Assembly: GCA_903813345.2 (NCBI GenBank)
Contig: CAIIXF020000009.1
Location: 27,750,740 to 27,814,739, forward strand
DNA: 64,000 nt
Reading direction: 5' to 3'
Source of the DNA: Owenia fusiformis
Taxonomy: Eukaryota > Annelida > Polychaeta > Sabellida > Oweniidae
Shown here: positions 40,443 through 64,000 of the stretch, piece by piece
How positions within the stretch are numbered: position 1 is the first letter of the stretch
Layout of the letters: every line of letters starts with the position of its first letter
Translations under genes and position numbers: made by a program
Notes under the pieces: generated by a model
What the model was told of the DNA's origin: nothing
Databases searched by the model: none
What the model saw: the letters and a program-made list of their open reading frames with translations, nothing else

Positions 40443-42628
40443 CTGTTACACTGCTGGGTTGAGTCTAACGAAGCATTTTTGTAACGAAGGTTAGCGAAAA
40501 AATTGTGTCCACACTGGCTTTATCCAACCCTAACGAAGCAATTATTTGGTGTTACACTGCACTTAAAATGCTTCGTTGCGCGTGCGCATTACTATTCTGC
40601 CCCACCCACTTATTATGATTAATATTTTTATTCTTTTGATATAAACCATTGATCAAACTCAAAAATCTAATTTTTAATCTTTATTTTAACAATTCAGCAC
40701 AGAAAAAGACCAGAAAATAAAACCAGAAAATAAAACCAGATGAATGTGATCATTCCGTACACATGTCCATTCATTTTTCCTATCATTTCGATTTTTATAT
40801 ATTTCAGCTATCAATACGATTACAAGTACTGTTTTCATTTTCTATCATTTCCTTTGGAAAACATATGGAATAAAAATAGGCCTATATTAATTACTAGGAG
40901 GAATTTGATTTGGGGTTTATACAGAGGACTAGTATGTAATATCATATAAAAACGTTCAATTTCCAAATGGACTTCTCAGTTATATTTCAAATAGTGTATA
41001 GCCATTACTAAAATAGTCCGGTGTTCGGCTAGACCCGTCTCGCCAATATTCCATGCATATTTGAGTGAGTTTGACATAAATCAGTATGTTAATCCATCAG
41101 CCGTCCGTTAAATTCGAAAATGGCGCAAATAGGAAGAAACTTGAATATCAGTTGTAAGCATCGTTTTACGACACATCAATAGTGTTTGGGGCTGGCCTAA
41201 AACATGCAGCCTCTCTGTGGCATCTGTCGACAAGAAACAATTTTGTCCGCAGGTTTTACCGTATTTGTATACGGAAGTTTTGAAACGTAATTAATTTAAT
41301 ATATTTAAACATGAAGTTTAAATTCAATTACAATTTAAAATCGTCGAAGAATATAATAATGGAACGACTGGTACAAGTATTGCAATGGGGCGATAGCCAG
41401 TTGAATACGATTTCTGAAGAGAGACATTTTCGAATCAATCAAATCGGCTAAATTCCCTGATGTGATTCACCGGGAAGCAATTTTATCAGTACCATGGTAT
41501 TTACACCTTTAGAATTACACTCAAGGTATAATCGAGGCGCAAGAAAAAATTGATATTAAACATGTATGCCAAAACTTTCTATTTAGTAAGCATATATTAC
41601 GTATAAGCGCCTACAATCTAGAGATAGAGAGAGGCCGATATACAAAACCAATTACTGATCTTAATAGTCGATTTTGTAAAATATGCAAGGACTCGGTTAT
41701 AGAAGATGAAACACACTTTTTATTCAAATGTAAAAAATTGGAGTTTATCAGAAAATCCCATATTGAAAAACTTGAAAACCTGTGTCGTAATTTTAAAAAC
41801 ATGAATGACCACCAAAAGACAATTTTTCTATTGACGAGTGAGGGGATAATATTAAAAGAATCTGCTGACATGATAAAGTATCTAATGATGGGTAGAGACA
41901 GGATTCTTATATCAAAGTAACATTTTATATGTCATTTGAAGAATGTAATCCTATTTTCTTTACTTTATTGCCTATATTTACTGTTATTGAAAATTGTATA
42001 TTGGATGTACGTTTGGCCCTAAAAGGGCATCAGTACTAATAAAATCCTATTATTACTTACTATATCTTATGTAATTTCAAAAGTTTACCCTTCCACACTT
42101 GAGACGGAGTTTTCCGAAAGAGGGACATTTAAATATTTCAGGTTTATTCTCTAATAGATCAGATAAACGTTTCAAAACTACCGTAAACATATACGGTAAA
42201 ACCTGCGGGAATCGAATGAAATGCTACGAAAGACGGTAAATTTGTATGTGGCGTTTAGGGCTTGAGTTAGCGTCAATCAGTGACACAAATAGGTAATTAT
42301 TTAAATCTAAACGTAGCATTATAATAATACGTAGTTAAAACATGTTCTTTCCTCGCGATTCCTCTCATTTAATACAAAATGATGAATGTGCTCTTTATTA
42401 CGCGCATGCGCAAACCCCCAACTAAGCATTTTCTAACGAAGCTACCTGTTACACTGGCCAAAAAAGCTTCGTTGGGACCTAACCTTCGTTGAATTTTCTA
42501 CTCAATTGCTTCGTTATCAACTAACGAAGGCGGAGGTGTTACACTGGCCCAAAATTGCTTCGTTACGAAGCTTTTTGTCAAATTGCTTCGTAACGAAGCA
42601 TTTCAACTGGCCTGTGTAACAGGGGTCA
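40443..42628. mobile_element. 2.2-kb DNA transposon relic with CCTGTTACAC ends
   Basis: Inverted ends CCTGTTACAC. About 170 bp at each end are loaded with AACGAAGC/GCTTCGTT words, and CCTGTTACACTGGCC-like words recur inside the right end. A second, longer inverted pair (41250-41291 and 42156-42200, GCAGGTTTTACCGTAT) lies inside. A LINE 3' relic (41513-42060) is nested between these inner arms. The flanks GCCATAG and GTCATAG may be an eroded duplication. No transposase frame. Superfamily uncertain. Confidence 0.65.
41513..41920 (+). pseudogene. Non-LTR retrotransposon relic: C-terminal end of the reverse transcriptase ORF
   Basis: Open for 135 codons with a stop TAA at 41918-41920. It reads like the C-terminal end of LINE reverse transcriptases: YNLEIERGRYTKP, then a CxxC-x(n)-EDETHFLFKC zinc-finger-like motif (CKICKDSVIEDETHFLFKC), then a helical tail. 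The rest of the LINE is missing (5' truncated, as usual for such elements). It is followed by a non-coding tail with GGCCCTAAAAGGGCATCAGT and AATAAAATCC up to about 42060. Confidence 0.7.
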
Positions 42629-43132
42629 TAGAAAGCTTAAAACATATCTGGTAAAAGCCTATATATACTATAGGATACAAGAAATGGTTGAAGACATACA
42701 GAAGCTGTAAAAAGATATACGGTACATGTTTTCTTGTTGTAAAACATGTTTAGAAAGGCTCCATAACACCCACTCACATTGGGTTGACTGTCAGCTAAAC
42801 AGTATACCTTACACTGAAATATAACATCATATTATGACATCACAATCATTGTAATATATGAGCATTACTAATATTATATAGTGGATTTAAGTTAATTTAT
42901 AAAATGTGTTGTAAAATTGGATGATCATCCATTATAAACAAGAGAAAGACAATTTTTATTTACCCTAGGTTTTCAATGTCCGTGAAATTGTGCCAACATT
43001 ACCTTAACTATAATGTGGTCATGGTTACCTAAAGGGCCAGAATGATTAAATGTCAAATCTATTCAAATCTAAGGATTTAAGAGACAAGCCATATTTTTTA
43101 ACATATAAGCCATAATTCATATTGTTACCTCA

Positions 43133-43212
43133 AAGGAGGATTAGCTCCCAGGGTTCCAATTCTAAATTTTAAATCTCCAAGCAAGATGGAACCCTGGGAA
43201 CCAATCCTCCTT
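43133..43212. mobile_element. Short fold-back MITE of the AAGGAGGATTGG family
   Basis: An 80-bp hairpin-like unit. The arms AAGGAGGATTAGCTCCCAGG and, inverted, AAGGAGGATTGGTTCCCAGG are continued by GTTCCA. It is the minimal version of the family. Confidence 0.65.
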
Positions 43213-43289
43213 CGTTGACCTCATAATTACCTCTTCCTAATACCCTTTTGTCTTGTGCTACTTTTCCACCATCTATCATCTGAATAGTA

Positions 43290-43577
43290 CACATTGATAT
43301 GATGCTCTAATATGACATTATCATACTCCTCATAATATGACATTATCATACTCCTCATAATATGACATAATCATACTCCTCATAATATGACATCATCATA
43401 CTCCTCATAATATGACATTATCATACTCCTCATAATATGACATTATCATACTCCTCATAATATGACATAATCATACTCCTCATAATATGACATAATCATA
43501 CTCCTCATAATATGACATTATCATACTCCTCATAATATGACATTATCATACTCCTCATAATACAATATTATCATACT
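43290..43577. repeat. 25-bp minisatellite
   Basis: About eleven units of ATCATACTCCTCATAATATG plus ACATT/ACATA, very homogeneous, in the intergenic region about 1.6 kb from the distal receptor exon. Confidence 0.85.
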
Positions 43578-44814
43578 CCTTACATTTTTCTTTATCTTGA
43601 TGTAGAATTACAAAATTGCTTAATTAGGACAGAAACTAACAATCTTTAGTTCAAAAGGTATTTACTAAATTTAGAAATATAATTTAGGCACCTACATATG
43701 GCATCAATAAATGTCTTTTAAAAAATCAACAATGATTACATGGCATGACAATGTAAGTCATCGGTCAATAAAAGAAAAATAGAGGTCCATCTTTATATGG
43801 AGATAGGACCTTGGTGCGCAATTAGCTTATTCCTCTCTTGGAGCAATACATGTAGATCTAATTATCTATCATCAAAAATGATTGAGATTTACATGTATTA
43901 CCATGTACATTTCTCGGTCATCTTTGATGTTTTAAACACTTATTAGCATTATACTGAATTATCTGTCAATATAGCAAAGCATTAAAGTACTGGTAAGTTA
44001 AGAGGGGAAATACCCCAGATATTTCCTGCTCAAATGTTGGTGTTATCGGATGTTTGGTGTCACATGATGTTTCACATCTGATCGTATAAGTAAAAACATG
44101 AATATTAATATACTATACTAACATGAAATATACTCTGTTACATTAAACCACATAACCATAAGATACCTCCTCACTTTCTTGAACAAATGTGGAAATGTTT
44201 AAGAAGAATCGGAATTTATATACTGTACTCCCAGTAAATTTCCTGAGTTTAGATATCGCGAATTTGAAAAATCATAATTTCTCTGCAATTAAATTTTACA
44301 GATTTCACAAGTTTAAATTTCATTATTCTCTGAATCCCCAAGCTCTGTAAACTAAGTTACTTTATGTACAGTAATTACAGCTAACTAATGTCATATCTGG
44401 ATAAGATTTACAACTACTAGATCTTGGTGAATGGCAAGCTGCACCTCAACCTCTATTACATTAATATATTTTTTTTTTATCTAATAAGCCAGTATAATCT
44501 AATTAGCCAGTGTAAGAGACACATTGGAGTCGCAGGTAATGACAAATCCCCGGTGATTTAATTGTAAAATTTCGCAATGATTATTTTTCCATATTTTACC
44601 CAAATCACGAAAAGTGCAAAAATAAATCGCACATGAAAAATACCGGGAGTACAGTAGATAAGAAACAGATTGAATGCAAAGTTAAACATCTCTCTTAGAT
44701 TTCACACCTATAAGCTGAAAACCTGTATTAGTTGAACACCTCTGTAAGCAGAATACCTTTTTAAAGCAAACACCTATTATACACTTTTAGAGAAGAGGAA
44801 TAAGCAAATACCTT

Positions 44815-44871
44815 TTTAATAAAAATACATGCTTATAAATTAATACTGTTTACTCCTGGTACTTGTTTAAT
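44815..44871 (-). promoter_or_regulatory. Candidate ATTAAA polyadenylation signals, distal receptor isoform
   Basis: Two ATTAAA variants on the minus strand (44866-44871 and 44815-44820) lie 300-360 bp after the distal stop codon. They are plausible but weak, and marked only because a terminal exon needs such a signal. Confidence 0.25.
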
Positions 44872-45176
44872 ACGGTACTAAGTACCTGTTCAAATCACAT
44901 GACATACCTGTTTAATACTACATATATGAAAACAAGGCACATGATGTAAATGAAATCACACCACCAAGTTGGTACTAAAAACATTTGTTAACACCGAAAA
45001 AGGGTACTTTAAAAAAATGACGCAACAGGGTACCATAAACATTTGTTAACATCTAACAGTGTACAATCATCAGGTGATACTGTAATAAAAAATTGACATC
45101 ATAATGGGGGTACCATAAATAGTTGGTACTATAAACAATTATTTACATTTACATGAATTACTATTAAGGAGCACTA

Positions 45177-45460
45177 TCAAAAAGTGGTTTGCTGGTTGCT
45201 ACTTGTACATGGATCCCTATCAAGGTCAAACATTTCTGAATGTAAATCTTGAGAACTTTCCATTTGACAAGAGTCTCGAAGCAATTCTAGCATGTTTTTA
45301 TGCTCAATGTTTAGTTCCCTCAAGCTAGACATTAACATGAGCAGTTTCGGGAAACATCCAATGTTTTCCGGGTGATTAAAAGCTATCAACCTTTGGAGAG
45401 GTTTGATGATTTGGTCTTGAATGGAGCTCACCTTGGCTGGGTCGATAAGACTGGTCCGAT
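45177..45460 (-). CDS. NR1-type nuclear receptor: distal alternative terminal exon (helix 8-12, stop)
   Basis: A 284-bp coding exon with acceptor TAATTTACAG, phase 1 entry and a stop TGA at 45177-45179. It starts DRTSLIDPAKVSSIQDQI and contains CFPKLLMLMSSLRELNIEHK, then DLHSEMFDL and a 15-residue tail rich in Ser, Thr and Gln. It can only replace the proximal exon, not follow it, because each carries its own stop and both enter from the same phase. Its first half (helix 8-9 and the 9-10 loop) differs strongly from the proximal exon, while helix 10-12 is conserved. No perfect AATAAA is seen close downstream on this strand; ATTAAA variants occur at 44866-44871 and 44815-44820. Confidence 0.92.
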
Positions 45461-45666
45461 CTGTAAATTATAAGATGGGGGATACCTTGTTAGCTATCAT
45501 AGGCATTATGTAAGTGTTTCAGTGAGAATGAGAGACCAAAACTACTACTAATTAATTTTTCAACCAATGTATTTATAAAAATCTAAAGTATAAATGCATT
45601 AATAAAAAGATTTAAGATTTTGAACAATTTTCAAACTAGACAACAGCATCGCCAAAGTGTAGCAAA

Positions 45667-46786
45667 TCCCATCGAACAGCCATGGCTGGCATAATTTTTT
45701 ACTAATAAATTTTTCAAAGTGGCCACCTTCTACCAAAAGTGTCACTAGACAGTGTGCCATGCTTATAGTATTTACATACCAAAAATGAACAAAATCGCTC
45801 CACTTCTTTTCGTGTTATAGTAAAATATGTTAAAATGGCGGCCATTTTTCAAAATAATAATACTAATAAATTTTTCAAAGTGGCCACCTTCTACCAAAAG
45901 TGTCAATAGACAGTGTGCCATGCTTATAGTATTCAGATACCAAATATGATCAAAATCGCTCCACTACTTTTCGAGTTACAGCAAAAATCGTAAAATAACG
46001 AGTAAAGGCCGCCATTTTTCAAGATGGCTGCCATGTGCTTCTTTAATATCTACATTTATAGCTTTATTAATGTCCTATATAATCTTTTTACATTTAAAAC
46101 ATATTGCTACTACAGTTTTACATATTGGACCTAAATTACTGTAAAATCAGCACTAAAATGGCCACCATTTTGAAATGAGTGGCCATGCTTATAGTATTTA
46201 CATACCAAAAATGAACAAAATCGCTCCACTTCTTTTCGTGTTATAGTAAAATACGTTAAAATGGCGGCCATTTTTCAAAATAATAAAACTAATAAATTTT
46301 TCAAAGTGGCCACCTTCTACCAAAAGTGTCAATAGACAGTGTGCCATGCTTATAGTATTCACATACCAAATATGATCAAAATCGCTCCACTACTTTTCGA
46401 GTTACAGCAAAAATCGTAAAATAACGAGTAAAGGCCGCCATTTTTCAAGATGGCTGCCATGTGCTTCTTTAATATCTACATTTATAGCTTTATTAATGTC
46501 CTATATAATTTTTTTACATTTAAAACATATTGCTACTACAGTTTTACATATTGCACCTAAATTACTGTAAAATGGGCACTAAAATGGCCACCATTTTGAA
46601 ATGAGTGGCCATTTTGAAAATCTGCTTTCGAGCAGAACTTCTTCCCCCATAGGGTACACCTGTACAAAATATGAACAAAATCGGGCCAACGGTATTTGAG
46701 TTATTGCCCGGACTGATGGACGTACGTACGTACGGACGGACGGACGGAGATGTTCCGTATATCCCTCCGAACTTTGTTCGATGGGA
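45667..46786 (+). repeat. Composite non-autonomous element, TCCCATCGAACA family, copy 1
   Basis: TCCCATCGAACA at the left end and, inverted, TGTTCGATGGGA at the right end. Inside is a 418-bp module present about twice (AATTTTTCAAAGTGGCCACC, CAATAGACAGTGTGCCATGC, AAATCGCTCCACTACTTTTC). An (ACGT/ACGG)n run at about 46722-46750 precedes the right end. It lies between the two receptor terminal exons. Confidence 0.7.
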
Positions 46787-46976
46787 TAAAAAACATCATA
46801 TAAGAGTAAGAGTAATACAAGACATGTAAATAAACCCAGGTAGATTAAATCACTGAATTGCATAATGAAAAAAAATGTTATGGTCTTCTACTAAAAAAAT
46901 GCAGAATTAGCAGCAAGCAGCTATCAAATCTATTGGTTATCAACAAAAAAATGTTAATCTAATTGAAACCACACCC

Positions 46977-47202
46977 CAGGGCTCTCACTAGGATTTTAGA
47001 CTGTGTCGCAGCACCACAGTCTTTTTAGCTCCCACCACACCCTATTGGCAAATCATGATTGTTTCCACAGTCTAAACTTGACTGAATACACAATAATAGC
47101 ATGTAAAAAGGATAAAATATGACATAAATACAATTTATCACTGAATGGTTATGCTTAAGATGTTTCCACCACACCCTAAATATTTTCCTGGTGAGAGCCC
47201 TG
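46977..47202. mobile_element. hAT-like MITE with CAGGGCTCTCAC ends
   Basis: 226 bp between CAGGGCTCTCACTAGGATTT and the inverted CAGGGCTCTCACCAGGAAAA. Subterminal CCACCACACCCTA occurs twice. The flanks are not a clean duplication. Non-coding. Confidence 0.7.
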
Positions 47203-47839
47203 CACTCCTCCCTCACTTATTAGATAAATAGATCTGCCTCGAGAGATACAGTACAACAAAACAGCAGTGTAATGTTATTAAAAAAGTTTCACATTAAATT
47301 CCATAGGCTATTATTTTCATACTTTTCTTTTAAAATGGCCCTTCATATGTTACCAGCCACCATACCAATAGTCTAAAAAATGCGATTACACATTGAATTT
47401 AGTGTGAAACATACAAGGCAGCACATAACTAAGCAATGTTCATAAAGGTATAGATGTCCCATGCTCCAACCCTCCCATAAATTAATGTGCAATTTACTCT
47501 CAATCTGTATGTGATGTCAATAAATTAAAGCGTCATATGTGATGTCAATAAATTGAAGCGTCATATGAGAATCATTAGAAAATGTCAAGTTTCAAGATTT
47601 CAGCCAAATATGTTGAAATGTTTTAACCTTAAGGGCTTGCCTATGTCTTGTATGTTTTTTTCGTTTTATACAACTTTTCCATCATGTATTATATGTGTTG
47701 ATTAAATTCACAAATCACATACCTTACATATTGATGAAGAATAATGAGTCATAATATTGCTAAGTTTTTACAGAGACTGTCATTCTTTTGCTTAAAGCAT
47801 CCTTACAAAATTTTTTACCACCATTTCTTTCAGTTAGCC

Positions 47840-48180
47840 AGAAGTAAGTTGTTTGGCTTACCAAAGTGTTTAACAAATAAAGCTGTTTCACTAACAGAAG
47901 TAATTCGCTTAATAAAGTTGTTTGGCTGACACGATTATTAAACAAGTTGTTCGACTTAAAGATGTGTAATTGATCAAGTTATTTGGCTTACAGAAGTTTT
48001 TAACTAATCAAGTTGTTTGGCTTACAGAATAACCAAACAAGTTGTTTAACTAATAGAAGTGCTTCACTAATCAAGTTGTTTGGCTTACAGAAGTGTTTAA
48101 CTTACAGAAATTTTTAACTAATCAAGTTGTTTGGCTTATACAAGTGTTTAACTTATCAAGTTGTTTGGCTTACATAAGTA
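47840..48180. repeat. Degenerate tandem repeat, TTGTTTGGCTTACAGAAGTG
   Basis: Irregular units of about 30-35 bp with AATCAAGTTGTTTGGCTTAC as the most conserved part. It lies just beyond the presumed 3' UTR of the proximal receptor isoform. Confidence 0.65.
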
Positions 48181-48250
48181 TTAAAAAAAACAGAAACGTG
48201 TTTAACTCTTTTCCTTACAAATTCTACTCTTTCATTCTTTAATTAACTAT

Positions 48251-48256
48251 TTTATT
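48251..48256 (-). promoter_or_regulatory. Second candidate polyadenylation signal (AATAAA), proximal receptor isoform
   Basis: AATAAA on the minus strand about 346 bp after the proximal stop codon. It is the alternative to the hexamer at 48332-48337. Confidence 0.35.
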
Positions 48257-48331
48257 CCAAAGCAAGCTGCACAGATATATTTTACAACATCAATAATATC
48301 TCTTCAATTTCTCTTCGTTTGAAATATGGCA

Positions 48332-48337
48332 TTTATT
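48332..48337 (-). promoter_or_regulatory. Candidate polyadenylation signal (AATAAA), proximal receptor isoform
   Basis: AATAAA on the minus strand about 265 bp after the proximal stop codon. A second AATAAA lies at 48251-48256. Either would close a short 3' UTR for the proximal isoform. In AT-rich sequence such hexamers are common, so this is only a candidate. Confidence 0.4.
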
Positions 48338-48601
48338 ATGATATTGCATGTTTTCACACATTCATATAATTCCTTAGTGGTTTGCTTGCTTATCTGGTGT
48401 ATCAATATCTATCTAATAACCACAGGTTAAATAACATTAAATTTTTTGCTGTGTTATGGTTCATTGACCTTTTTAATCAGTTATATAGCTTTAATGGTGA
48501 ATTATCACCACAGTCGCTTCGGTTGTTCCCCAATGGCATTATTATATATACAGTACAACATTATCCAATTATAAATACAATAGGGGCCTAAGTGCACAAT
48601 A

Positions 48602-48858
48602 CTACTGCTGATTTAAATCCATCAATTCACTATGTAATTCATCAGCTGCAATGGGGACTTCGCCACCCTTTTCCATGATGCTTTGTAAGATTTGTTTATG
48701 TTCAACGTTCAATTCACGAATGTTTGACATCATCATAAGCAAGCGTGGGAAAATGCCATAATCATTGGGATGGTTTCGCTGAATGTTAAGTTGTAAAGTC
48801 TGCAAAAGTCTTTCCTGTGCTTTAAGGATCATCTGTCGCTGCCTTAGACACTGCCGAT
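48602..48858 (-). CDS. NR1-type nuclear receptor: proximal alternative terminal exon (helix 8-12, stop)
   Basis: A 257-bp coding exon with acceptor CTTATCCAG, phase 1 entry and a stop TAG at 48602-48604. It starts DRQCLRQRQMI and continues through a helix 9-11 region with IFPRLLMMMSNIRELNVEHK, then a linker and a C-terminal ELHSELMDLNQQ. The last part fits an AF-2 helix (hydrophobic-x-x-Glu-hydrophobic-hydrophobic). Rev-erb type receptors lack such a helix 12, so this isoform looks capable of recruiting coactivators. Two AATAAA sequences follow within 350 bp on the same strand. The exon is paralogous to the distal terminal exon: 15 of 26 residues are identical from FP to the end of helix 11. 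The surrounding introns hold minisatellites on both sides. Confidence 0.92.
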
Positions 48859-49189
48859 CTGGATAAGGAGAAATATATGGCATGTTATATAGATCTCATT
48901 GGTTAGGTCAGATATACTTGCTTCCTTGCTAGGTTTAGTGTTAGAAAAAATAGCTGCTTTTTATGGTTAAGGGCATCCCCATTCTAACTTGATTAGAGTT
49001 GGAAACACCTGTTTAATTACTTGGTTTAATGTCAAGAACACCCTTATTCTTGCTTGTTGTTGGTTAGAAACACCTCATTAACTACTTAGCAGTTAGTACG
49101 AACCACTCAGAACACCATTATTCTCGCTCAAGGTAAATGTCAGAAATACCTCTTTAATTACTTGGTTGATGTCAGAACATCCTTATCTT

Positions 49190-50395
49190 GTTTGGCTAGG
49201 GTCAAAAATGTCCCATCCCATCTTACTTAATAGTAAATGATCCTTATTCCAGCTTGGTTTGGGTCAAAAATGTCCCATCCCATCTTACTTAATAGTAAAT
49301 GATCCTTATTCTTGCTTGGTTTGGGTCTGAAATGTCCTATCCTATCTTACTTAATAGTCAATGATCCTTATTCCTGCTTGGTTTGGGTCAAAAATGTCCT
49401 ATCCTATCTTACTTAATAGTCAATGATCCTTATTCTTGCTTGGTTTGGGTCAGAAATGTCCTATCCTATCTTACTTAATAGTCAATGATCCCTATTCTTG
49501 CTTGGTTTGGGTCAGAAATGTCCTATCCTATCTTACTAAATAGTTAATGATCCTTATTCCTGCTTGGTTTGGGTCAAAAATGTCCTATCCTATCTTACTT
49601 AATACAGTAGTCAATGATCCTTATTCCTGCTTGGTTTAGGTCAGAAATGTCCCATCCCATCTTACTTAATAGTAAATGATCCTTATTCCAGCTTGGTTTG
49701 GGTCAAAAATGTCCCATCCCATCTTACTTAATAGTAAATGATCCTTATTCCAGCTTGGTTTGGGTCAGAAATGTCCCATCCCATCTTACTTAATAGTCAA
49801 TGATCCTTATTCTTGCTTGGTTTGGGTCAAAAATGTCCTATCCTATCTTACTTAATACAGTAGTCAATGATCCTTATTCCAGCTTGGTTTGGGTCAAAAA
49901 TGTCCCATCCCATCTTACTTAATAGTCAATGATCCTTATTCTTGCTTGGTATGGGTCAGAAATGTCCTATATCATCTTACTTAATAGTCAATGATCCTTA
50001 TTCTTGCTTGGTTTGGGTCAGGAATGTCCTATCCTATCTTACTTAATAGTCAATGATCCTTATTCTTGCTTGGTTTGGGTCAGAAATGTCCTATCCCATC
50101 TTACTTAATAGTCAATGATCCTTATTCTTGCTTGGTTTGGGTCAGAAATGTCCTATCCTATCTTACTTAATAGTCAATGATCCTTATTCTTGCTTGGTTT
50201 GGGTCAGAAATGTCCCATCCCATCTTACTTAATAGTCAATGATCCTTATTCTTGCTTGGTTTGGGTCAAAAATATCCCATCCCATCTTACTTAATAGTCA
50301 ATGATCCTTATTCCTGCTTGGTTTGTGTCAGAAAAGTCCCATCCCATCTTATTTAATAGTCAATGATCTTTATTCTTACTTGTTTTGGGTCAGTC
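49190..50395. repeat. 62-bp minisatellite in the receptor intron
   Basis: About 19 units. The core words are TTACTTAATAGTCAATGATC, CTTATTCTTGCTTGGTTTGG and GTCAGAAATGTCCTATCCTA. Units differ by TCCCATCCCATC versus TCCTATCCTATC and by an occasional ACAGT insertion, arranged in interspersed blocks. It ends about 330 bp upstream of the proximal terminal exon in the gene's direction. Confidence 0.85.
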
Positions 50396-50698
50396 AAGTC
50401 AGCCAGTCATTCCATCTTACTTAATAGTCAATGAACTCATGAAGGTCATTGACTATAATGGCAATTCTCTTCGGAAATATAAAACAGAGTGATACAGACA
50501 GATGAAGGTAATGAATTAGTAAAAATGGATGATTCAATATGCCAACATCCACATCAGAGCCAAAAAGCACTTTGATAAGATAGCTATTTAAACAATCACA
50601 ACAGGTGGCACTAAAAATTAGAGTGTAAAATGTTGGAAAGAATCTTTTCAAAAAGCTTACAATCCTAATGTTTATATCTGAAAAGAGTTGACACAACC

Positions 50699-57300: not shown

Positions 57301-57866
57301 TATATTGGCTGTGTATACCTATGCCTGCATCTCTGGGTACATCTATAGATACATCTCTAGGTATACCTATGCATGCATCTATGGGTACATCTATAAGGAC
57401 ACATTTGAATGCATCTTTGGGTACATCTATAGATACATCTCTAGGTATACCTATGCATGCATCTATGGGTACATCTACAAGGACACATTTGAATGCATCT
57501 TTGGGTACATCTAGAGATACATCTTTAGGTACACCTATGCCTGCACGGGTTGGTTGTGGGTTCAATTCCCACCGAGGTGGACTGACTTTTACACATCAGC
57601 CCTTAGCATAGGAAATTATCCTATGTTTCAAAGAAACATTTGAATGCATCTTTGGGTACATCTAGAGATACATCTTTAGGTACACCTATGCCTGCATCTC
57701 TGGGTACATCTATAAGGACACATGCATGGGAAAGACCATGTGACATCATGAATAGTGTGATTGGCAACCTGGAAAGACAGGTGAACCTTATGAGGGTCCA
57801 GGGAACTGGGCATGTAAGTCATGGCAGAGAAGCCATATATGCAGTGTTGATGTGTAAAAGCCAGTC

Positions 57867-57940
57867 GGCTCCGTAGCTCAAGTGGTAGAGCATCCGAGAT
57901 CTAATCGGTAGGTTGTGGGTTCAATTCCCACCGAGGTGGA
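57867..57940 (+). repeat. tRNA-like unit (SINE head), copy 1
   Basis: GGCTCCGTAGCTCAAGTGGT begins a tRNA-like fold with an A-box-like region (TAGCTCAAGTGG), an anticodon-like stem CCGA-GATCTAA-TCGG and a perfect T-arm GTGGGTTCAATTCCCAC containing the B box. The acceptor stem pairs poorly and position 33 is A, not T, so a working tRNA is unlikely. It is framed by the 19-nt inverted pair TGATGTGTAAAAG(C/T)CAGTC (57849-57957). Confidence 0.6.
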
Positions 57941-58171
57941 CTGACTTTTACACATCAGCCCTTAGCATAGGAAATTATCCTATGTTTCAAAGAAACTAAT
58001 AAAAAATTCCTAGTCGGCCGGGAATGGCGCATGGGAAAGATCATGTGACATCATGAATAGTGTGATTGGCAACCTGGAAAGACAGGTGAACCTTATGAGG
58101 GTCCAGGGAACTGGGCATGTAAGTCATGGCAGAGAAGCCATATATGCAGTGTTGATGTGTAAAAGCCAGTC

Positions 58172-58245
58172 GGCTCCGTAGCTCAAGTGGTAGAGCATCC
58201 GAGATCTAATCGGTAGGTTGTGGGTTCAATTCCCACCGAGGTGGA
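58172..58245 (+). repeat. tRNA-like unit (SINE head), copy 2
   Basis: Identical to copy 1 in the tRNA-like part. It is 305 bp away within a direct tandem duplication (57724-58028 and 58029-58294) whose units also share GGGAAAGA(C/T)CATGTGACATC and GGTCCAGGGAACTGGGCATG. A third, 5'-truncated piece (T-arm onward) is at 57545-57630. Confidence 0.6.
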
Positions 58246-59250
58246 CTGACTTTTACACATCAGCCCTTAGCATAGGAAATTATCCTATGTTTCAAAGAAA
58301 CATTTGAATGCATCTTTGGGTACATCTAGAGATACATCTTTAGGTACACCTATGCCTGCATCTCTGGGTACATCTATAAGGACACATTTGAATGCATCTT
58401 TGGGTACATCTATAGATACATCTCTAGGTACACTCATGAGACCCTCAATAGGCTTATCTCTAGGTATACCTATGCCTGCATCTCTGGGTACATCTATAGA
58501 TACATCTCTAGGTATACCTATGCATGCATCTATGGGTACATCTATAAGGACACATTTGAATGCATCTTTGGGTACATCTATAAATACATCTCTAGGTATA
58601 CCTATGCATGCATCTATGGGTACATCTACAAGGACACATTTGAATGCATCTTTGGGTACATCTAGAGATACATCTTTAGGTACACCTATGCATGCATCTA
58701 TGGGTACATCTATAAGGACACATTTGAATGCATCTTTGGGTACATCTAGAGATACATCTTTAGGTACACCTATGCATGCATCTATGGGTACATCTATAAG
58801 GACACATTTGAATGCATCTTGGGTACATCTAGAGATACATCTCTAGGTACACCTACGCATGCATCTATGGGTACATCTATAAGGACACATTTGAATGCAT
58901 CTTTGGGTACATATATAGATGCACATATGGGTACACCAATGGACACAGCTGAGAAACTACTTCATACACCCAACAGTGCATCAAGAGTGACAAAATGCAT
59001 GATCAAAATGACAGTCACTGAGGGACATCTCTAAGCAAAGCACTTCATTCTACATTGAATCCATTTTCCCATCATCTACCCTTGTTAAAATTTTGAAAAA
59101 ATGTAAATTTAGAAAAACACAACGGCACTCATGAAATAATTTTCACTTTTAGATAATAAGCAAAAGTATTTTACCACCCAGCATTTAAACCCAATTGAAT
59201 TCATGTAGAATTTTGTGAAACATATGAGACAATTCCTAAGGGGCACTCAC

Positions 59251-59470
59251 CTGGGGATATGATCATAAGTGCACTAAAGAGAGACATCTCAGCGTTCGTT
59301 AATCTGAAGGAATTCAGACGTATGGAAAAATTGAACATTAGTTCAATGAATTTTTCCCCAAGGATGAATCCAGCTTTAAGTTGTTGACGGGTGACGACCA
59401 TGTTGTTGCCAAGGATGTACATGCTGTTACTCTCTTCATCTATGAAAGCAGCATGAACTACACATGCAAC
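59251..59470 (-). CDS. NR1-type nuclear receptor: LBD exon (helices 5-8), shared donor for both terminal exons
   Basis: A 220-bp exon with acceptor TTTTTAG and donor GTGAGT. It enters in phase 0 (CFE | VACVVHAAF) and leaves in phase 1 (ISP | G). It encodes the middle of the LBD, including FNFSIRLNSFRLTNAEMSLF and SALMIISP. This resembles the E75/Rev-erb pattern FxFSexLNxLxLsdeEmsLFtAvvLvSp that runs into DR at helix 8. The last G joins AT of either terminal exon to give the conserved Asp of the DR pair. The donor is therefore the branch point for the two alternative C-termini. The downstream intron is 10.4 kb to the proximal terminal exon or 13.8 kb to the distal one. Confidence 0.95.
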
Positions 59471-61884: not shown

Positions 61885-62073
61885 CTCGAAACAGCCTCCT
61901 TTGATCAAATTAATCTGGTCTTCCGTGTGAAGTTCCACAAAACCAGGCACCTTTTTGGCAAAGCTGACAACCTGTTTAATGACATCATTTAGTCGAACTT
62001 GGAATCCTTTCCACATTTTCTCACCCATTTGCGGATCTGGCATCGTTAAAGGCATCCCAGCAGCAGTGGGAAT
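61885..62073 (-). CDS. NR1-type nuclear receptor: LBD exon with helix 3-5 signature
   Basis: A 189-bp exon (63 codons, phase 0 at both ends) with acceptor TTTTTCCAG and donor GTATCAC. It carries the nuclear receptor LBD signature FAKKVPGFVELHTEDQINLI, preceded by MWKGFQVRLNDVIKQVV (helix 3) and followed by KGGCFE. The DQ pair and the Lys of helix 3 that take part in coactivator docking are present. The Cys upstream of helix 3 that ligates haem in Rev-erb/E75 receptors has no counterpart here: the segment before MW reads AAGMPLTMPDPQMGEK. Haem sensing as in those receptors is therefore not supported. The donor lies about 10 bp from a dispersed repeat that forms the beginning of the next intron. 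Confidence 0.95.
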
Positions 62074-62937: not shown

Positions 62938-64000
62938 CATAATTTTGTTTCCATCATCATTTTCTGATATTGCATCACAAACAACCTTGTTTATCATGGC
63001 ATCTATTGGAGAAGTCCCCATTTGACGCTTCTTTAAAGCTTCCCTCATCGCAGAAACCTTATCAAAGGTATAAGGAAAAACTTCCGTAAAAGCATTAGTA
63101 ATTTTTTCAGTCAACATTTGGTGAATGTTTTTTTCCTCCTCAGACATTTGGTTTACAAAATCAGTTTCAATCGATGACGATGAAGATAAATTTGAAGCTC
63201 TTGAGGAAGAAACATCAAATAGCGATCCAATATTGTCTGAACAATCAGCTGAACCTGTCTGATTTTCATTATTCAATCTTGGATGAATAACGTTACTATT
63301 TCTAACATCATGGTCATCAATATTCATACTCATTGGGGATCCAGGACTATTTGGGGATTGAGGAGGGTAAGGCCTCTTTTTTACGGGATTACGCACATGA
63401 AAATTATCATCCATTCTATTGCCTAAGTTGTTAGGTGAAGGCACATGTTGCTCTGAGGCTGGGGTTGGGGTCCTTGAATGGGCTGGGGGAGAGTGAGGGT
63501 ATACTTGAGCAAGGTTATCGAGATGTTTAGATGTATGAGGCATTGTGCGTACACCAACCATGCCTCCAGTGTCCATCTTTGTTTGTATGGAGGAGATTTG
63601 AGCAAATGAGTTGCGCATATTTTGAGGGTATTCTTCTTTATGCGACTGTTGGAATGATCCTTGTGCTCTGGGTGTATAACCTTGGGGTATATCCATATGC
63701 GGATGAGATTCTTGATTGGAATTCTGTAATTGTTTCATCTGTTGCCGTTGCTGCTCTTGCATGTGGTACAACATCTGTAACACCTGTGGAGGGGTCTGCG
63801 CCGCGATATGCGGTGGTATCCCAGTCACTCCAGGCAAGTTATTTAAACTACCAGGCTTCGCTGCAGCCCTAGCTAAAGCCTTTGTGGTAACAATCTCATC
63901 GTAATTCATATCCCCTTGACCCAAGCGGTCGTTCAAAGACCCCATTTCACTTCCTCCCATCTGCTGACCAACTGCTTTAAGAAGTGAGGGGAAATCTCCA
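62938..64000 (-). CDS. NR1-type nuclear receptor: hinge and start of ligand-binding domain (5' end outside window)
   Basis: One open frame runs from the window edge to the donor GTAAGT after codon ATG (62938), leaving in phase 0. The DNA-binding domain must lie beyond 64000. The visible part is a long hinge of about 270 residues: a Gln-rich stretch (LYHMQEQQRQQMKQLQ), many Ser-Pro and Thr-Pro sites (for example HSRTPTPASEQHVPSP), a basic patch PVKKRPYPP that could serve nuclear import, and a Ser-rich segment. It then enters a predicted helical region (KITNAFTEVFPYTFDKVSAM) that resembles helix 1 of NR1 ligand-binding domains. The function inferred is a ligand- or cofactor-controlled transcription factor. 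The following exons match E75/Rev-erb, PPAR and the lophotrochozoan NR1P-like receptors about equally well by eye, so I give no symbol. Confidence 0.9.

Follow-up and report, generated by a model that had tools for sequence, protein, structure and literature searches.

Nuclear receptors owe most of their variation to gene copies, to N-terminal isoforms and to alternative ends with impaired function. Here we describe the 3' part of an NR1-type nuclear-receptor gene of the annelid Owenia fusiformis, in which two homologous last exons, A and B, are predicted to provide alternative ends of the ligand-binding domain (LBD). The gene was found on the minus strand of a 64-kb stretch of DNA (the window; C9:27750740-27814739 of the host genome, where C9 stands for contig CAIIXF020000009.1). 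Unless a contig is named, all coordinates are positions in this window.

Two described NR1 systems with parts exchanged by splicing are among the closest to this organization. In TR-alpha-2, an isoform of thyroid hormone receptor alpha (NR1A1), 40 residues are exchanged for 120, with loss of helix 12 and disruption of the ninth heptad (PMC9266318). The Owenia gene resembles TR-alpha-2 in being an NR1 gene in which splicing to an alternative last exon farther downstream would determine the C-terminus. However, A and B are homologous whole exons, both of which retain the ninth heptad (LLMxMSx(I/L)) and helix 12 (LHSExxDL); neither the loss of helix 12 nor the heptad break that mark a blocking isoform of the TR-alpha-2 type is seen in A or B. 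In turn, for the crustacean ecdysone receptor (EcR, NR1H1), variable D/E regions are reported in 10 of 11 crustaceans; in Eriocheir sinensis Es-EcR-4 a 150-bp exon gives way to a stretch of equal length, described as a retained intron, and in Macrobrachium nipponense EcR 49 residues are substituted (PMC5636884). There too, part of the LBD of an NR1 receptor is exchanged by splicing. Yet in the crab it is exon 7 of 9 that is swapped, presumably with shared exons following, whereas A and B end in their own stops, unlike a swap inside the LBD with shared exons behind it. The initial annotation of the locus, whose author knew of no description of such a swap in NR1 receptors, thus went too far: both systems are NR1 swaps, although of a different make.

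NR1P receptors of the oyster Crassostrea gigas are placed near NR1C-NR1F (PMC4070562). By best matches the Owenia gene lies near NR1C-NR1F as well, while membership in NR1P would rest on its place in a phylogeny; the words "splice" and "exon" are absent from the main text of the NR1P paper (PMC4070562). Among the matches listed from openly licensed PMC literature, the titles and abstract beginnings contained no receptor with two homologous last exons both keeping helix 12, which is weak evidence of novelty.

We consider it probable that the locus is a single NR1-type gene with an ancient duplication of its last exon, in which the choice of A or B from the donor at 59251 would complete a full LBD and alter pocket closing or coregulators more than RXR-type dimerization.

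Two last exons behind one donor

Exon A (48602-48858, minus strand) encodes 85 residues with helices 9-12, the first residue being split with the preceding shared exon, and ends in TAG. Exon B (45177-45460, minus strand) encodes 94 residues, comprising helices 9-12 and a 14-residue tail, and ends in TGA. Their acceptor context is identical (AG/ATCGG, the slash marking the border), and both are entered in phase 1 from the donor CCCCAG/GTGAGT, whose last exon base is 59251; the join to either exon gives G+AT, that is Asp. The ATCGG starts after AG, the phase-1 entry from 59251 and the separate stops had all been reported initially and can be read directly from the DNA. Both acceptors contain 12 pyrimidines in 16 positions, the same as both shared acceptors scored. 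Two AATAAA poly(A) signals follow the A stop at +265 and +346 (48251-48337, minus strand) and two more lie 2.1 and 2.5 kb past it, all of them before B, which is located 3.4 kb beyond A. Past the B stop, the first ATTAAA is found at +261 (44911-44916, minus strand); like the two nearer A signals, it is a consensus match only. The organization is that of a putative alternative-last-exon pair: two last exons on one donor, with equal entry phase, own stops and own candidate poly(A) signals.

Given a stop frequency of 0.066 in this region, 85 codons (A) would stay open by chance with a probability of 0.003, and 94 codons (B) with one of 0.0016. The stretch from the donor to B contains 365 YAG sites. 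A phase-1 frame open for 84 codons follows 20 of them, and exon A is the sole one of these with 12/16 pyrimidines (B was scored apart). Eighteen of the other 19 open sites are positioned at 57308-58793, in or beside tandem arrays, and one at 50677. These arrays, which occupy 57313-58941 of the long intron, consist of units of 12, 24, 48 and 84 bp, together with a 305-bp unit present in some two copies. Long open frames, of up to 191 residues, occur there on either strand and can mimic exons. From the conservation and anatomy of A and B, we infer that both are spliced in vivo.

The part of the gene preceding A and B is shared. The DNA-binding domain (DBD) lies upstream, outside the window, and is split between both zinc fingers over two exons, where PF00105 matches C9:27851313-27851387 and C9:27824884-27825033, both above cut-off. 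The DBD stretch that matches ROR-gamma measures 87 residues as compared to 84 in ROR-gamma, and the three extra ones (noted at C9:27824884-27825033) appear by eye to be situated between the zinc fingers (QDIGDPSRKKC). In spliced order, the DBD exons are followed by a long hinge exon (to 62938), then by 61885-62073, 59251-59470, and A or B, all on the minus strand. What the window contains of the large shared exon is its 3' part (62938-64000, the rest extending past the window), which covers the hinge and the start of the LBD and ends in the donor ATG/GTAAGT at 62938. Exon 61885-62073 (IPTAAG...GGCFE), which we take to be the helix 3-5 region, matches Pfam Hormone_recep with E 1.7e-4 and 21.6 bits, under the cut-off of 23.5. 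Exon 59251-59470, which runs to ISP, includes helix 8 and provides the phase-1 donor, was aligned to NR1D2; a Pfam search with this exon alone gave no match. Counted from the first DBD exon, the frames run without a break through 729 (A) or 738 (B) residues to the stop, the N-terminus lying beyond the modelled frame. The first DBD exon and the end of exon B are about 55 kb apart, and the whole gene spans at least 55 kb.

With a two-finger zf-C4 DBD and an LBD that extends through helix 12, the predicted product belongs among NR1 nuclear receptors. Its DBD carries CEGCKGFFRR, presumably the P-box, and when spliced matches ROR-gamma best (E 2e-30), followed by NR1D1 (E 2e-27). The best LBD matches are NR1D2, then PPAR: the whole LBD gives E 9.6e-34 with the A end and 2.4e-33 with the B end against NR1D2, and at best 1.6e-28 and 5.6e-29, respectively, against PPAR-gamma. 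By best matches, the gene thus sits in the NR1C-F region. It is akin to Rev-erb/E75 (NR1D/NR1E) and PPAR (NR1C) in that NR1D2 and PPAR are its best solved LBD relatives and NR1D1 comes second for the DBD. Rev-erb, in turn, is not known to have a helix 12, and at other loci of the host genome the match to the Rev-erb second DBD exon is closer (72% versus 55%). We rejected an assignment as the Rev-erb/E75 orthologue, as the second DBD exon of the gene, at 55% against 72% for the best locus, ranked 9th of the 20 loci listed.

Origin and age of the exon pair

The A and B proteins are identical at 33 of 84 positions (39%) over their BLAST alignment (pairwise E 3e-19), and in the host genome each is the closest match of the other by far. 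A genome search with A returned B as the best non-self match (E 1.6e-12, the next being 0.0019), and a search with B returned A (E 1.1e-12, the next 0.0032). The pair therefore most likely arose by duplication within the receptor gene, and the sequence lends good support to the initial proposal that duplication of an exon provided a single gene with two receptor ends. Both copies stand at a similar distance from known receptors. NR1D2 shares 20/58 residues with A and 21/58 with B, while A and B are closer to each other (26/58), and identity with PPAR-delta is 22/64 and 24/64, respectively. When each exon alone was compared with solved structures, A matched PPAR-alpha (E 7e-10, residues 10-64) and B matched PPAR-delta (E 3e-8, residues 1-74). 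Further last-exon copies were sought by tblastn in the window, where matches besides A, B and the shared exon were at chance level (E >= 2.2), and in the genome, where none of the best candidates scored was better than E 0.0019. As to the duplicated unit, the last exon of a receptor gene on contig C7 appears, read by eye, to start at the same point and in phase 1 (AG/AA CGT, Glu-Arg for Asp-Arg), and that of a receptor gene on contig C8 may do so too, although less clearly (also by eye). This suggests that the unit was probably the native last exon of this receptor family.

Duplication of the whole gene, with the second copy later losing its 5' exons, would look identical; exon B could then be part of a second gene, a tandem copy that has decayed but has a promoter of its own. 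Yet A, B and the shared exons were all that the whole-receptor query revealed in the window at E <= 0.05, and window and genome searches yielded no second set of upstream exons for B. Nor do the shared parts have a close second copy: genome-wide, the shared LBD exons find their next best match at E 6e-6 and the second DBD exon finds its own at 63% identity, both on C7 and thus on another contig. At 1-45000, we found five frames of at least 110 residues, none of them receptor-like by eye, a check that short exons would escape. We hold a second gene to be highly improbable.

The duplication within the gene appears to be old. Over 83 aligned codons, A and B show a pN of 0.46 and a pS of 0.75, with pN >= pS in 0.1% of 5,000 codon bootstraps. 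Two alignments gave dS values of 2.8 and 3.4, both saturated, so that the age of the duplication can be read only as "old". Saturated synonymous sites combined with restrained amino-acid change point to both exons having been held under selection after the duplication; past purifying selection is thus indicated for both, and a long-dead exon is very unlikely. A different matter is whether one of the exons has recently become a relic that is no longer spliced in; B, being farther away and having the weaker poly(A) signal, would be the likeliest candidate. The absence of AATAAA past the B stop in the stretch examined would fit this, but both frames are open despite the saturation of synonymous sites, and the pyrimidine content of both acceptors equals that of the shared ones. 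Moreover, in a neutral simulation of 1,000 copies started from the present B, in which a mutation draw may restore the original base, 126 frames (12.6%) stayed open at 0.25 draws per site and a single one (0.1%) at 1.4. A recent relic therefore seems to us quite unlikely, if less so than a second gene, and we retain the reading of two selected exons.

Parts kept and parts exchanged

For comparison of the two ends, LBD parts were delimited by us from alignments to PPAR and NR1D2 and from structure models of the exons. The exon models have a mean pLDDT (predicted local distance difference test) of 71 for A and 65 for B, and contain helices at residues 3-6, 8-28, 37-64 and 72-84 in A, and at 8-29 and 36-80 in B. 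Judging from these alignments and models, A and B would carry helices 9, 10-11 and 12, with helix 8 encoded in the shared exon 59251-59470. The initial description of "helix 8-12 ends" with different helices 8-9 and tails consequently applies to helix 9 and the tail, but not to helix 8. Identity between A and B is distributed unevenly. It is low over loop 8-9 and helix 9 (7/28), where the two ends are as far from PPAR-delta (7/28 for A and 9/28 for B) as from each other, and higher over the NHP loop (4/7) and helix 10-11, the dimer-heptad helix (15/23); it falls to 0/14 where helix 11 ends and the loop leads to helix 12, and rises to 6/8 in helix 12 itself. Past helix 12, B has 14 residues and A three. 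The count of 15 of 26 identical residues from FP onward, previously assigned to helix 10-12, was reproduced, but the stretch itself covers helices 10-11, after which come the 14 positions without identity and only then helix 12.

The pocket histidine, helix 12 and the ninth heptad are kept in both ends. The helix-11 histidine (NVEH or NIEH) aligns with the NNMH histidine of NR1D2, which we take to be the heme ligand there, and with the EH of PPAR, which presumably contacts acid ligands. Helix 12 reads LHSELMDL or LHSEMFDL, with the common form LHSE(L/M)(M/F)DL. In the ninth heptad, A has LLMMMSNI and B has LLMLMSSL; the residues at positions 1, 5 and 8, which correspond to L367, V371 and L374 of TR-alpha (PMC9266318), are hydrophobic in both. 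Since the dimer-heptad helix and helix 12 are kept, while helix 9 and the helix 11-12 loop are swapped, altered pocket closing or coregulators are likelier outcomes than an altered dimer partner, a ranking derived from where identity drops. Among the different dimer partners, ligands or coactivators proposed in the initial annotation, the partner is accordingly the least supported, helix 10-11 being kept in both; the swapped helix 9, helix 11 end with its loop, and tail point to pocket closing, coregulators or stability.

The same distribution of identity has to be weighed under two other explanations. A helix 11-12 loop that is wholly unlike in A and B might mean that one of the LBDs cannot bind ligand or coactivator, so that one form blocks the other; TR-alpha-2 is a precedent in that it, too, is an NR1 gene product with an alternative end (PMC9266318). 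We regard this as unlikely, given that the ninth heptad and LHSExxDL are kept in both ends, whereas TR-alpha-2 breaks the former and is without the latter. The conservation of the dimer helix and helix 12, and the fact that each stop is followed by candidate poly(A) signals of its own, would also suit ends that differ little as proteins, the duplication being retained for control of expression via two 3' untranslated regions (UTRs) and poly(A) sites. The odds seem to us similarly poor here, as the divergence of A from B over loop 8-9 and helix 9, equal to that from PPAR-delta, goes beyond what a UTR switch would need.

Several observations weigh against the probable reading of one gene with two usable ends. 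The AF-2 (activation function 2) consensus is hydrophobic-hydrophobic-x-E-hydrophobic-hydrophobic (PMC9266318), and its second position is His, not a hydrophobic residue, in both A and B. Modelled helix 12 mostly has pLDDT < 50 in A and is fused to helix 10-11 in B, and a structure search with the exon models returned PPAR LBDs as top matches, none of them at E <= 0.001, so that little weight is placed on it. The PPAR match of A (residues 10-64 of 85) ends before helix 12, and the helix 12 of A therefore rests on the A/B alignment and the motif. Pfam Hormone_recep matches A (E 0.022) and B (E 0.0021) below cut-off, and a genome search with this model listed neither at E <= 1; the model is a poor detector for A and B. 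Finally, only ATTAAA follows the B stop, with no AATAAA in the 2.2 kb examined (43000-45176).

On balance, we favor a splice choice between two ends of one receptor. The donor at 59251 would join exon A and the transcript would be cut at A's own poly(A) site, giving receptor A, or exon A would be skipped and the same donor joined to B, giving receptor B. Either end would complete a full LBD and would bring in a helix 9, a dimer-heptad helix 10-11, a pocket histidine and a helix 12 of its own. Both forms would retain DNA sites and RXR-type dimerization, while the differences in helix 9, in the loop that positions helix 12, in two of the eight helix-12 positions and in the tail would change ligand fit, coregulator choice or turnover. 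That both LBDs are complete and active, with dimer partner and DNA sites in common and different pocket closing or coregulators, so that the gene would act as a splice-switched ligand sensor, is a more tentative proposal, to which we give slightly less than an even chance.

Intron sequences and implications of the exchange

Several repeats and one open frame were found around the two exons. Just upstream of exon A, a 62-bp unit is repeated in tandem about 20 times in the intron (49179-50434). Between A and B, a 426-bp unit occurs twice with 98% matching (45751-46612), which indicates that the A-B intron changed recently. Exon B is flanked by 68-nt arms (44708-44775 and 47960-48027) that are 71% complementary; they may stem from the minisatellite nearby, as a by-product of it, or may bring exon B into a loop in the transcript. 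Farther on, a 135-residue open frame on the plus strand (41513-41920) with a CxxC...HFLFKC pattern looks, by eye, like a retroelement remnant.

Two homologous, constrained ends on one receptor would amount to a natural domain-swap experiment. Within the same gene and on the same DNA sites, the predicted swap would separate the roles of helix 9 and the helix 11-12 loop (ligand, coregulator) from that of helix 10-11 (dimer). If both forms are indeed made, half of the receptor pharmacology would escape annotation that retains a single isoform for each gene.

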